A stretch of DNA of 64,000 bases from Gemmobacter serpentinus (GTDB lineage Bacteria > Pseudomonadota > Alphaproteobacteria > Rhodobacterales > Rhodobacteraceae). A program made the translations under genes and the position numbers. The notes under the pieces were generated by a model. That model did not search any database, had not been told where the DNA came from, and saw only the letters and a list, made by a program, of their open reading frames with translations. Positions 30,607 through 41,067 of this stretch are shown here, one piece after another. Position 1 is the first letter of the stretch; the number at the start of each line of letters is the position of its first letter. The stretch covers positions 1 through 64,000 of the forward strand of contig NZ_WCHR01000002.1 in the NCBI RefSeq assembly GCF_008973825.1, written 5' to 3'.

Positions 30607-30681
30607 TGGAGCGGGCGATGAGATTCGAACTCACGACCCTAACCTTGGCAAGGTTATGCTCTACCCCTGAGCTACGCCCGC
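30607..30681 (-). tRNA. tRNA-Gly (GCC), copy 2
   Basis: Acceptor GCGGGCG / CGCCCGC, anticodon loop TTGCCAA (GCC), T loop TTCGAAT and encoded CCA. The body is identical to the copy 31 bases upstream. Confidence 0.97.
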
Positions 30682-30712: not shown

Positions 30713-30787
30713 TGGAGCGGGCGATGAGATTCGAACTCACGACCCTAACCTTGGCAAGGTTATGCTCTACCCCTGAGCTACGCCCGC
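30713..30787 (-). tRNA. tRNA-Gly (GCC), copy 1
   Basis: The same 75-base cloverleaf as the next copy, with encoded CCA. It is the promoter-proximal member of a tandem duplicate. Confidence 0.97.
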
Positions 30788-37743: not shown

Positions 37744-38886
37744 CTATCGTTTCAGCCGCTCCAGCAGGTGAAAGCCCAGTCCGGCGATCAGGCCCCAGAA
37801 GGCCGCGCCGATGCCAAGGGCGGGCGTGCCGGAGGCGGTGACGGCCAGGGTGATCGCGGCGGCAAAGCGGGTCTCTGTCGGGCCAAAGGCTCCGCTGGCG
37901 GCGCCCATGAACGGGCCAAGCAAAGCCAGAGCGACGATGGCGGTAATGAGTTCGGGCGGGACGGCCCCCAGCAGCGCCAGAATCAGCGGGCTGAGGACGC
38001 CCAAGATCAGCCAGATGCCGCCATAGACCAGTCCGACATGCCAGCGTTTGTGGCGATCGGGATGCACATCATCCCCAAGGCAGATGGCGGCGGTGATCGC
38101 GGCCATCGAAATGGTATGCGCACCGAACAGTCCGGCCAGCGCCGACAATCCGCCGGTCACCACCAGCCCGTCGCGCACTGGCGGCTCGTATCCGGCGGCG
38201 CGGATCGTGGCAAAGCCCGGCAGGTTCTGCGAGGCCATGGTGACCAGATAAAGCGGCAAGGCAAGGCCGATCAGCGTGCCAAGGTCAAACGCGGGTGCAA
38301 TGAAGGTCAGCTGCGGCCAGGGCAGGCTGAGCTGCGGCAGATGGGCAAGCCCGGTGACAAAAGCCGCAGCCAAGCCACCCGTCAGCGCGATCAGCACCGC
38401 CAATGCGGGATTTCTCAACCGCACCAGTGCAAAGACCGCGATCACCGGCAGGATGAGTGCCGGCAATGTGGTGGTCGCGTCGGGCAGGCGCAGGCAGAAG
38501 GGCAGCAGGACGCCCGCCAGCATCCCGGCGGCGATACCGTCGGGGATGGAGGCGACCAGCCGCCCCAGCGGTTTGACGGCACCGGTCAGCGCAATCAGCA
38601 GGCCGGTCAGCACAAACGCACCCACGCCTTGGGCCATGCTGATCCCCTCGGTTGCGGCGATCAGCGCGGCACCCGGTGTGGACCATGCGAGCACCACCGG
38701 CACTTTGGATCGCCAGCTGAGCAGCGCCGACCCTGCCGCCTTGGCCAGACAGATCGCCAGCACCCAGCTTGCAGTCTGATCCGTGCTGGCCCCGAGGGCT
38801 GCGGCGGCGGCCAACAGCAGCGCGATGGTAGAGCCGTATCCCACTAGGGCGGCAACAAGGGCTGCGGAAAACAATGAGACGCGCAT
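37744..38886 (-). CDS. BenE-family benzoate/H+ symporter-like transporter
   Basis: A 380-residue inner-membrane transporter with about 11-12 membrane segments, the BenE family layout. KVPVVLAWSTPGAALIA near residue 62, IPDGIAAGMLAGVLLPF, and TIRAAGYEPPVRDGLVVTGGLSALAGLFGAHTISMAAITAAICLG are family blocks. No benzoate catabolic gene is near, so the substrate may differ. The gene starts 135 bases past the small-RNA array terminator on the same strand, and read-through could contribute to expression. Confidence 0.88.
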   Translation of the reverse strand: MRVSLFSAALVAALVGYGSTIALLLAAAAALGASTDQTASWVLAICLAKAAGSALLSWRSKVPVVLAWSTPGAALIAATEGISMAQGVGAFVLTGLLIALTGAVKPLGRLVASIPDGIAAGMLAGVLLPFCLRLPDATTTLPALILPVIAVFALVRLRNPALAVLIALTGGLAAAFVTGLAHLPQLSLPWPQLTFIAPAFDLGTLIGLALPLYLVTMASQNLPGFATIRAAGYEPPVRDGLVVTGGLSALAGLFGAHTISMAAITAAICLGDDVHPDRHKRWHVGLVYGGIWLILGVLSPLILALLGAVPPELITAIVALALLGPFMGAASGAFGPTETRFAAAITLAVTASGTPALGIGAAFWGLIAGLGFHLLERLKR

Positions 38887-39020
38887 CTTTGGCTCCGGTC
38901 AGAACCGGGCGACCATGGCGGGGCGGTCGCGACGATGCAAGGGGCGCGCGCTGCAGATCGCTTGGCAGAACGCTTGGTTGCGCCAGATCGCAGGAGGCGG
39001 GAAGGGGAAGATTGAAATGA
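38887..39020. other. Gap between benE and the small-RNA array
   Basis: Promoter region for benE on the minus strand. No clear -35/-10 pair is visible. Confidence 0.35.
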
Positions 39021-39093
39021 AAACGGCGGCGCCCAGGGAGGAGGAGGGGCACCGCCGTTCTGTCAGTCGCCGCCCAGGGAGGAGGAGGGGCGG
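39021..39093 (-). ncRNA. CcsR/cuckoo-type sRNA unit 5 (distal, ends in terminator)
   Basis: On the minus strand, first hairpin CCGCCC-loop-GGGCGG (39070-39093), then AACGGCGG-T-GCCC-loop-GGGC-G-CCGCCGTT (39021-39060). Both loops read CTCCTCCTCCCT. The second stem runs into TTTTCATTT, so it doubles as the terminator of the whole array. Confidence 0.8.
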
Positions 39094-39107
39094 GTTCTGT
39101 CTGCGAC

Positions 39108-39169
39108 GCACCCCAGGGAGGAGGAGGGGGAGCTCGCAAGTTCCATGGCCCAGGGAGGAGGAGGGGCCA
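39108..39169 (-). ncRNA. CcsR/cuckoo-type sRNA unit 4
   Basis: TGGCCC-loop-GGGCCA (39146-39169), 12 bases, then GC-T-CCCC-loop-GGGG-T-GC (39108-39133). Loops CTCCTCCTCCCT. The second stem is the weakest of the array. Confidence 0.75.
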
Positions 39170-39204
39170 AGGATCGATGTTGGGCCGGATGGCCCGAAAG
39201 GGGT

Positions 39205-39269
39205 GCGGCGGCTCCAGGGAGGAGGAGGGAGCCGCCGCTGAACCCAAGGCCCAGGGAGGAGGAGGGGCC
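39205..39269 (-). ncRNA. CcsR/cuckoo-type sRNA unit 3
   Basis: GGCCC-loop-GGGCC (39248-39269), nine bases, then a perfect 11-bp stem GCGGCGGCTCC-loop-GGAGCCGCCGC (39205-39238). Loops contain CTCCTCCTCCCT. Confidence 0.8.
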
Positions 39270-39321
39270 GAGGATCCGGTTTGAGGCCCACCCGCACCGG
39301 CAGGCCCCGAAGAAATTGCGA

Positions 39322-39385
39322 CGATCCCAGGGAGGAGGAGGGGATCGCCGCGTTGCATCCGGCCCAAGGGAGGAGGAGAGGGCCG
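39322..39385 (-). ncRNA. CcsR/cuckoo-type sRNA unit 2
   Basis: CGGCCC-TCTCCTCCTCCCTT-GGGCCG (39360-39385), 12 bases, then CGATCCC-loop-GGGATCG (39322-39347). Both loops show CCTCCTCCC. Confidence 0.8.
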
Positions 39386-39424
39386 TGCAATTCATCTGGA
39401 AGCGTCAGGCTTCCGGTATTGGGT

Positions 39425-39489
39425 GCGGCGATCCCGGGGAGGAGATGGGATCACCGCGAAGCGTCGGCCCTGGGGAGGAGGATGGGCCG
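39425..39489 (-). ncRNA. CcsR/cuckoo-type sRNA unit 1 (promoter-proximal)
   Basis: CGGCCC-ATCCTCCTCCCCA-GGGCCG (39465-39489), seven bases, then GCGG-T-GATCCC-loop-GGGATC-G-CCGC (39425-39457). The second loop is ATCTCCTCCCC, the most diverged. The unit begins ten bases past the DUF1127 stop codon. Confidence 0.8.
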
Positions 39490-39499
39490 CGCCGAAAAC

Positions 39500-39715
39500 T
39501 TACTTCCCGTATGCGGCCTCATGGGCCATGCGGGTGATCATCGAGCGATGGATGCCAAGATCCGCCAGTTCGCGGTTGCTCAGCGATTTCAGCTCCCGCA
39601 CGGTGCTGCGGTAGATTGCGCGTTGGGCCATCGCCTTGCGCAGATCCGCGACCAGAGTGGCGAAGCGTTCGCCAAGACCCTGATGGGCAACCCGGGTGGT
39701 GTTTACAAAAGCCAT
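39500..39715 (-). CDS. ccaF1: Small DUF1127 protein, CcaF1-like
   Basis: A 71-residue basic protein with the DUF1127 module in its C-terminal half (YRSTVRELKSLSNRELADLGIHRSMI). In R. sphaeroides the DUF1127 gene directly before the CcsR RNAs is ccaF1, an RNA-binding protein that helps mature those RNAs. The placement here is the same: its stop is followed at once by the hairpin array on the same strand. ATG 39715 is chosen by the conserved start and GGAAAG upstream; the longer frame reads into the leader. The gene symbol is transferred by context and sequence class. Confidence 0.88.
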   Translation of the reverse strand: MAFVNTTRVAHQGLGERFATLVADLRKAMAQRAIYRSTVRELKSLSNRELADLGIHRSMITRMAHEAAYGK

Positions 39716-39779
39716 CGTCTTCGTCTTTCCGTATCCAGCAGGTCTGTGCGTCTTTTGCTGCCCTGCTTCGTTGAGTTGA

Positions 39780-39808
39780 AGATGGGGCATTTTCTGCATC
39801 TGCACAAT
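39780..39808 (-). promoter_or_regulatory. RpoH-like promoter of the DUF1127-sRNA operon
   Basis: On the minus strand CCCCATCT (39787-39780) is a full match to the RpoH -10 (CCCCATnT). TTGTGC (39807-39802) stands 14 bases upstream as the -35, matching only TTG of CTTGAAA. In R. sphaeroides the homologous operon is stress-induced through RpoHI/RpoHII. The start would fall about 58 bases before the ATG. Confidence 0.5.
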
Positions 39809-39969
39809 CCGGGACTGCTGCAATGCAGCTATGCGGATCGCGCATGGCAGGGCTTGTGAATTCCCCTGCGTCATGAGGCACTTCGCCGCAAATATGGACG
39901 CAGTTCAAACCAGCCCTTGCCCTTTCGGGCGTGCTGCACGAGTCTGGCGCGGCAACAGGAGGCCGGATT

Positions 39970-41067
39970 ATGGACATCACGCGTGAGCTCGTTCTCAAGG
40001 CGCTTTCGGAGATCGCGGTGCCGGGCGGCGGTTCGCTGGTATCGCGCGATTTGATTCGGGCGCTGCGCGTCGAGGCCGGGACGGTGGGCTTTGTGATCGA
40101 GGCCCCGACGCCCGAGGACGCCCGTGCTTTCGGTCCGGTCCAGGCCGAGGCCGAGGCCGCCTTGCGGGCTCTGCCGGGCGTGGAGCGGGTGCAGGTGGTG
40201 ATGACCGCGCATGGCCCCGCCGCGAAACCGGCGGCCAGGCCGGCACCTGCGGCCGGCGCCCCCAACCTGAAGATCGGCGGTCATCCCGCGCCGCATCAGG
40301 GCGGGCCAAAGCGCGTCAGCGGCATCGAGCGCATCATCGCCATCGGTTCGGGCAAGGGCGGTGTCGGCAAATCCACCGTCAGTTCCAACCTTGCGGTGGC
40401 GCTGGCCCGGCAGGGGCGGCGGGTCGGTCTGCTGGATGCCGATATCTATGGCCCCAGCCAGCCGCGCATGATGGGTGTGAACAAGCGCCCGGCCAGCCCG
40501 GACGGCAAGACCATCATCCCCTTGCAGGCGCATGGCGTCACCGTGATGTCCATCGGCTTCATGCTGAAAGAGGAGGAGGCGGTGATCTGGCGCGGACCGA
40601 TGCTGATGGGGGCGCTGCAGCAACTGATCGAGCAGGTGGCCTGGGGCGATCTGGACATTCTGCTGATCGACCTGCCACCGGGCACTGGCGATATCCAGTT
40701 GACGCTCAGCCAAAGGTTCGCGCTGACCGGGGCGATAGTCGTCTCCACGCCGCAGGATGTGGCGATGCTGGATGCGCGCAAGGCGCTGGACATGTTCGGC
40801 AAGCTGAAGGTGCCGGTCCTCGGTCTGGTGGAAAACATGTCTACTTATATATGCCCCAATTGCGGGCATGAGGCGCATCTGTTCGGCCATGGTGGCGTGG
40901 CAGCCGAGGCGGCAAAGATCGGAGTGCCTTTCCTTGGGGAATTGCCGCTGGATCTGGATACGCGGCTTGCGGGCGACGCCGGCACGCCGATCGCCGCAGG
41001 ATCCGGGCCGATGGCCGAGGCTTATAGCCGCTTGGCCGCGCGGCTGGTTGCAGGCGGCATGGCCTGA
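39970..41067 (+). CDS. mrp: Mrp/ApbC-family iron-sulfur carrier P-loop ATPase
   Basis: Scaffold/carrier that loads Fe-S clusters onto apoproteins. The 365-residue product has an N-terminal DUF59 (MIP18-like) domain (about 1-85), an Ala/Pro linker, then the Mrp ATPase: deviant Walker [14 protein letters not shown] near 126, [25 protein letters not shown], and the CPNCG pair near 297 that binds the bridging cluster. ATG 39970 follows CAGGAGG; the frame is open 13 more codons upstream. It ends at a strong terminator before the dcw control region. Confidence 0.94.

Follow-up and report, generated by a model that had tools for sequence, protein, structure and literature searches.

A ten-hairpin cuckoo RNA array of ordinary size in Gemmobacter serpentinus and a conserved composite promoter element with a putative LysR-type box

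The cuckoo RNA family is said to have been defined by Reinkensmeier and Giegerich in 2015, with SmelA075 and SmelA099 among its members, and the core papers on CcsR/cuckoo RNAs are reportedly those of Billenkamp 2015, Reinkensmeier and Giegerich 2015 and Gruetzner 2021. According to the excerpts consulted, a cuckoo RNA has two to four hairpins with a shared loop and unconserved stems, and carries an anti-Shine-Dalgarno motif (PMC4504443, PMC3927594). The closest described locus is the ccaF1-CcsR operon of R. sphaeroides. The excerpts from R. sphaeroides papers name four CcsR RNAs, report ccaF1-CcsR co-transcription and Hfq binding, and describe an RpoHI/RpoHII promoter (PMC10253847, PMC3320616), a response to singlet oxygen in which induction peaks at 7 min (PMC3688512) and processing of the CcsR RNAs by RNase E and PNPase (PMC7866481). 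In the same excerpts the DUF1127 protein is described as binding RNAs and acting in CcsR maturation (PMC10253847), FlhR mRNA is a CcsR target, and effects on glutathione and pyruvate dehydrogenase are mentioned (PMC8307010, PMC7074977). Also relevant is the VtlR/LsrB regulon of the Rhizobiales: an excerpt on Brucella gives CAATGCAGCCATGCA as the VtlR-binding motif, and three DUF1127 genes and the sRNA AbcR2 as being under VtlR control (PMC12595884).

The window, i.e. the whole stretch of DNA analysed here, is a 64-kb (64,000-nucleotide) segment of the genome of Gemmobacter serpentinus. A hairpin scan of the window revealed ten consecutive hairpins with CTCCTCC-type loops on the minus strand between 39489 and 39020, immediately preceded on that strand by a short DUF1127 gene:

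39500..39715, minus strand: DUF1127 gene (ccaF1-like), 71 aa; PF06568, 50.7 bits, cut-off 23.3
39465..39489, minus strand: hairpin 1 (pair 1); hairpin scan
39425..39457, minus strand: hairpin 2 (pair 1), loop CTCCTCCCC; hairpin scan
39360..39385, minus strand: hairpin 3 (pair 2); hairpin scan
39318..39351, minus strand: hairpin 4 (pair 2); hairpin scan
39240..39277, minus strand: hairpin 5 (pair 3); hairpin scan
39205..39238, minus strand: hairpin 6 (pair 3); hairpin scan
39142..39173, minus strand: hairpin 7, opens the terminal four-hairpin block; hairpin scan and spacing in the genus
39108..39133, minus strand: hairpin 8; hairpin scan (hairpins 8 to 10 form the ar14 match, 57.4 bits)
39070..39093, minus strand: hairpin 9; hairpin scan
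39020..39061, minus strand: hairpin 10, 15 pairs, continues into TTTTCATTTC, carries the loop and is also the probable terminator; hairpin scan and genus comparison

The start codon of the DUF1127 gene was set to match the 71-aa relatives, the longer mechanical ORF being 39500-39874. Its stop codon ends at 39500, 10 nt ahead of hairpin 1, and the protein, for which NCBIfam offered no name, shares 77% identity with a sequence from Gemmobacter caeruleus. The array is followed on the same strand by a BenE-type transporter gene (37744-38886); the divergent neighbour upstream, on the plus strand (39931-41067), encodes a P-loop ATPase (PF10609), presumably ApbC/Mrp. Elsewhere in the window two tandem tRNA genes with equal scores stand on the minus strand (30610-30681 and 30716-30787).

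Nine of the ten loops contain CCTCCTCCC exactly, corresponding to nine GGGAGGAGG matches on the plus strand, and the loop of hairpin 2 has CTCCTCCCC; the loop motif of the cuckoo family is CCUCCUCCC. Apart from the array, the same scan detected two isolated loop hairpins in the window, both on the plus strand, and none on the minus strand. When the window was resampled 40 times under a Markov-1 model, no more than two hairpins clustered within 600 nt, and resampling the 470 nt of the array itself 500 times gave at most four. The 472-nt array RNA folds with -229.7 kcal/mol; 100 dinucleotide shuffles, none of which folded as well, had a mean of -184.4 kcal/mol (z -7.0); under a cruder Markov resampling (60 runs) z was -2.3. 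The hairpins of the array are real, far above what chance produces, and their structure is conserved. The ten minus-strand hairpins with the loop motif or a close variant, which the earlier note had described, were all found again. It must be noted that the hairpin scan overlooks some hairpins (one loop in locus L020 was left without a counted stem), so the hairpin counts given in this work are approximate.

The gaps between successive hairpins vary in size with where the stem ends are set, and a recount changed in part the values previously listed, giving 7, 39, 8, 40, 1, 31, 8, 14 and 8 nt. The division into five equal pairs, proposed in the earlier note, is only one way to parse the array; we prefer a 2+2+2+4 arrangement, because the genomes of the genus keep the gaps between hairpins 7 and 10 short. 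The linkers 39424-39386, 39317-39278 and 39204-39174 each contain a small hairpin of their own, which lacks the loop motif and is a possible processing signal. The last hairpin, on average the most conserved one among the genus genomes, probably doubles as the terminator. A terminator hairpin is also reported at the end of the R. sphaeroides locus. Hairpin 10 was not in the list of the automatic terminator scan, because that scan accepts only loops of 3-8.

Five open frames overlap the hairpin region (minus strand: 110, 163 and 360 aa; plus strand: 130 and 152 aa) and could be taken to mean that it codes for a protein on one strand. We give this reading next to no credence: none of the five frames has a Pfam family above the cut-off, and matching inter-hairpin gaps differ among the genus genomes by lengths that are not multiples of three (the second gap is 40, 39, 38, 33 or 36 nt long). 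Neither Pfam nor the gap lengths pointed to hairpins that code within a conserved protein, the observation which had been named in advance as incompatible with an RNA array.

As to the RNA family, Rfam reported nothing within the array at the gathering level. Under permissive settings ar14 (RF02344) matched at 39143-39020 with 57.4 bits, the gathering score being 58.8, and CcsR1 (RF02791) matches within the array had 44.3, 42.5, 37.9 and 36 bits, compared to a gathering score of 65.3. Five CcsR1 matches in the array had E values from 2.3e-9 to 2.8e-5, and the next one in the whole genome had E 0.0075; since at E values up to 10 CcsR1 matches also appeared in 12 of 14 control genomes, we regard the genome matches above E ~0.007 as noise. 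At E<=1e-4, CcsR1 was detected in 233 of 295 genomes of the family, each from another genus, and in none of the 14 controls, but its gathering score was reached in only 10 of the 295. All 11 genomes of the window's genus have a CcsR1 match, and in four of them the gathering score is passed (best 98 bits). As orthologous units in these four genomes do pass, the Rfam cut-off appears strict, and we conclude that the missed gathering scores reflect this strictness and not another kind of RNA. The covariance scan suggested in the earlier note, which had counted a rejection by these models as evidence against the array, had a mixed outcome: the units of this array stay below the gathering scores, yet units in four of the 11 genus genomes pass CcsR1. 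The proposal that a cuckoo/CcsR array stands behind a DUF1127 gene was borne out by the CcsR1 E values and by the PF06568 score.

The array resembles the cuckoo family in its adjacent hairpins, its loop motif and its variable yet paired stems, with pairs and a four-hairpin block as predicted RNAs (the ends are predicted) falling within the two to four adjacent hairpins per RNA, and its last three hairpins cover ar14 over the full length. It differs in that this match remains just below the ar14 gathering score, and in that several units stand in tandem. The array also gave weak matches, below the cut-off, to 6C RNA (RF01066), an actinobacterial two-hairpin RNA with C-rich loops; perhaps this is a case of convergence. 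No second array was found in the genome. A 22-bit CcsR1 match at C1:48142 was considered as a second array and dismissed, as there is no loop hairpin there, and the hairpin scan found no loop hairpins at the four other DUF1127 loci of this genome.

The excerpts of the R. sphaeroides papers name four CcsR RNAs, and the earlier note had considered the present array larger than the known one. This could not be upheld. Downstream of the DUF1127 gene at least ten hairpins were counted by the same scan in 27 of 80 named relatives, with a maximum of 16 in Pseudotabrizicola sediminis and Mesobaculum littorinae; six of the 80 showed no hairpin by the scan, and one locus (L051) spanned only 225 nt. These relatives were the best 80 of 235 found via the DUF1127 protein, a sample skewed to close relatives. 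Exactly ten hairpins are present in nine of the 11 genus genomes, our own included, in the pattern pair, pair, pair, four; in one of the ten-hairpin genomes (G307) the gap after the first pair is shorter, and the remaining two genomes (82% and 87% complete) have three hairpins. The named and the genus samples are not independent, as the spacings of three genus genomes coincide with those of loci L009-L011. Five or more CcsR1 matches, not always at a single place, occur in 34 of the 295 family genomes. In the genome that we infer to be R. sphaeroides 2.4.1 (G051), a 71-aa DUF1127 gene is followed by seven pairs, 14 hairpins in all. The other four genomes of the R. sphaeroides-like genus have 4, 5, 5 and 8 CcsR1 matches, the last on two contigs, so four-unit arrays exist; the genome with four matches (G295) is 83% complete. 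The array is of ordinary size for its bacterial family. Three further observations were made in the course of these comparisons: the last five pairs of the inferred R. sphaeroides 2.4.1 array (G051:C4:692456-691706, minus strand) are nearly alike, in the genus genome G304 (contig C6, locus L162) the end of a second DUF1127-like gene is followed by a lone two-hairpin unit, and in two other genus genomes there are CcsR1 matches off the array (G299:C24 and G302:C1).

In an alignment of 55 two-hairpin units, drawn from 83 that were extracted from the window and the named relatives, both partners had changed with pairing preserved in nine of the 11 predicted pairs of the second stem; the first stem was unresolved in this alignment. 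Each of hairpins 6-10 has the same loop in all nine genus genomes compared, and the stems differ. Compensated stem changes together with fixed loops indicate, as judged from the alignments, that the structure is under selection, in agreement with what the earlier note had supposed. The wide variation of hairpin number between genera would suit a repeat family or a stabilising 3' end without any trans-acting role, but the ten hairpins are kept within the genus, there are no well-scoring dispersed copies in the genome, and in functionless repeats the loops would be expected to drift as the stems do; we consider this explanation very improbable. Recent duplication as the source of the expansion in the genus was likewise discarded: among 90 hairpins of the nine genus genomes none had a paralogue of its own genome as its nearest hairpin, which suggests that the ten positions predate the divergence of these species. 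The positional orthologue was the best match in only 492 of 720 comparisons.

What is new in this locus is not the array itself, which is of a known kind, but a composite promoter element; the notable part lies in the promoter, outside the coordinates of the array. The following elements were recognised upstream of the DUF1127 gene:

39831..39845, minus strand: putative LysR-type T-N11-A box, interrupted palindrome ATGCG-CGATC-CGCAT; TGCR-N5-YGCA at a fixed distance in 95 of 99 promoters
39821..39835, minus strand: core CGCATAGCTGCATTG, same pattern as the reported VtlR motif; genome pattern search
39794..39807, minus strand: -35 TTG of the RpoH-type promoter with a probable activation subsite TGCA-NN-YGCA, TTGTGCAGATGCAG; sequence, role of TTG from an excerpt of PMC3441632
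39779..39787, minus strand: -10 of the RpoH-type promoter, CCCCATCTT; sequence

Transcription is predicted to start at ~39771. As far as sequence can tell, the TTG and CCCCATCTT with A-12, C-14 and T-9 make an RpoHI/RpoHII-type promoter; these bases and the spacing agree with what is reported for R. sphaeroides RpoH promoters, although C-13 disagrees with the RpoHII logo in the consulted part of PMC3441632. Of 31 loci examined, 21 have a -10 of the strict RpoH form C[C/A]ATNT, correctly spaced, and a sigma-70 promoter scan gave no match.

The conservation of the composite element (39845-39794, minus strand) goes far beyond the needs of an RpoH promoter. TTGTGCA occurs within 260 nt upstream in 70 of 81 loci (the window and 80 relatives; background expectation 0.014) and is missing in 11; NN-YGCAG comes directly after it, and in most cases TGCATRGC-N-GCAWTG stands before it. 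The centre of the box is ~30 nt ahead of the -35 TTG, at ~-66. In 95 of 99 distinct promoters TGCR-N5-YGCA is centred 29.5 or 30.5 nt before the TTG, the left arm of the box having played no part in choosing the 99. A perfect 5-nt inverted repeat is found in 55 of the 99 boxes, and no covariation between the box arms beyond R/Y was detected in these promoters. The pattern YGCATRGCNGCAWTG has a single exact site in the 4.26-Mb genome, namely CGCATAGCTGCATTG, and 48 sites with one mismatch; the reversed control gave none. The pattern GCATRGCNGCAWTG-N11..17-TTGTGCA-NN-YGCAG was found with no mismatch in 159 of the 295 family genomes, in all but four of them as a single site, and its reversal in none. 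In a set of 30 fetched loci with the composite promoter, one or more loop hairpins lay no further than 1,500 nt downstream in every case, and in 27 a DUF1127 gene was located within 500 nt. This element of ~40 bases may therefore serve as a simple marker for ccaF1-CcsR loci.

In this genome the box also occurs at the DUF1127 locus C28:21902 / C28:21714, as a full composite including CCCCATGTT and with one mismatch in the core, and at the DUF1127 gene C44:115028, with ATGCACTTTCTGCAT; the other two DUF1127 genes have no box. The association was not seen across the class: a 21-base pattern matched 50 of 289 genomes and its reversal 13, and in none of 30 fetched loci from outside the family did box and core precede a DUF1127 gene, a test that used a family-trained profile and may miss short DUF1127 proteins.

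A LysR-type factor at ~-66 with subsites down to -35 represents the classical activator layout. The genome contains 45 LysR-type HTH matches. Among the 30 of these 45 that were fetched, the product of the gene C1:62872-63762 is by far the closest to PDB 9hh1, which we take to be a VtlR/LsrB protein, the PDB entry itself saying only LysR family. The two share 50.5% identity over 190 residues (next candidate 31%), and the match has 248.9 bits, with 107.3 for the next PDB chain. NCBIfam did not provide a name for this protein, all 25 families among the matches listed being below the cut-off. A search at E<=1e-70 detected exactly one homologue per genome in 117 of 120 family genomes, the identity lying mostly at 70-89%; the homologue in the R. 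sphaeroides-like genome G051 is 83% identical. Eight genomes whose homologue is at most 63% identical (G004, G008, G014, G017, G054, G059, G083 and G101) have neither a CcsR1 match nor the composite promoter, but this joint absence could be explained by kinship alone, and several genomes with a closer homologue (e.g. G001, G003, G015 and G057) also lack both. At C29:1599-2104 of this genome a DUF1127 match is arranged head to head with a match to the LysR-type HTH.

The upstream block overlaps the RpoH-type -35, the box is a predicted site only, and with so many LysR-type HTH matches in the genome, the block might be bound by another factor or be merely an extended RpoH promoter, an alternative that we take seriously while putting it at somewhat below an even chance. 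Against it, an RpoH promoter alone requires no sequence at ~-66, where the T-N11-A box lies, and the core fits the reported VtlR motif as given in the excerpt of PMC12595884. That motif is present in the promoter as its reverse complement, TGCATGGCTGCATTG: CGCATAGCTGCATTG differs from it at two positions, both of which lie inside the family pattern YGCATRGCNGCAWTG, and the reported motif fits YGCATRGCNGCAWTG too. In our opinion a VtlR/LsrB-like LysR regulator probably controls the operon via the box at 39845-39821. As in the VtlR/LsrB regulon of the Rhizobiales, there is a common core motif next to DUF1127 genes, three box-bearing DUF1127 promoters and a single conserved LysR homologue being found here. 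The differences are that the sRNA is not AbcR but a cuckoo array in the same predicted transcript, and that the predicted box overlaps an RpoH-type promoter. Among the papers searched, none joined VtlR with CcaF1 or LsrB with CcsR, though the link may be in print.

With its leading 71-aa DUF1127 gene, its two-hairpin units with CCUCCUCCC loops and its RpoH-type promoter, the locus matches the R. sphaeroides ccaF1-CcsR1-4 operon, from which it differs by having ten hairpins, compared to 14 in the inferred 2.4.1 genome, and a terminal block of four. It is very probably a ccaF1-CcsR (cuckoo RNA, CIN1) operon with an RpoH-type promoter, processed anti-Shine-Dalgarno RNAs and probable LysR activation; that the R. 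sphaeroides features hold at this locus, and that target pairing and the LysR step take place, we infer. A single transcript starting at ~39771 from the RpoH-type stress promoter would encode the DUF1127 RNA-binding protein and then the ten hairpins. RNase E, aided by the DUF1127 protein, would cut in the linkers to yield two-hairpin RNAs and a terminal RNA of three to four hairpins. The CCUCCUCCC loops could then pair with GGGAGGA-type ribosome-binding sites and lower the translation of selected mRNAs in stress, the many hairpins providing both dose and many simultaneous binding sites. The VtlR/LsrB-kind LysR regulator would activate the operon by binding to the 39845-39821 box.

Complementary ribosome sites are plentiful, as GGGAGGA-N2..9-ATG has 100 sites in the genome and its reversal eight (one of the 100 is the opposite strand of the array itself), but such an enrichment is expected of any strong Shine-Dalgarno sequence and names no target. 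Instead of pairing with mRNAs, the array might mainly titrate a protein, its loops offering multivalent binding to the DUF1127 protein or to Hfq. The constant loops and variable stems would agree with this, as would the joint occurrence of the protein gene and the hairpins in 74 of the 80 named loci and 27 of the 30 promoter-found loci, and the RNA binding and role in CcsR maturation reported for the DUF1127 protein in the excerpt of PMC10253847. Nevertheless we regard titration as unlikely, as FlhR mRNA is reported as a target (PMC8307010) and the motif has been read as anti-Shine-Dalgarno (PMC3927594), in both cases as far as the consulted portions go.

From the sequence comparisons we propose, at roughly even odds, that a conserved single-copy LysR redox regulator of the VtlR/LsrB kind governs, as one regulon, both the cuckoo array and additional DUF1127 genes in Rhodobacterales, and that it would share the promoter with the heat-shock sigma factors. 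Were this true, the promoter would be a gate joining two stress signals, and the array would correspond, in Rhodobacterales, to the branch of the VtlR regulon formed by the AbcR sRNA. For this well-studied stress RNA the promoter points to a second, putative regulator, and the family includes a model species, R. sphaeroides.
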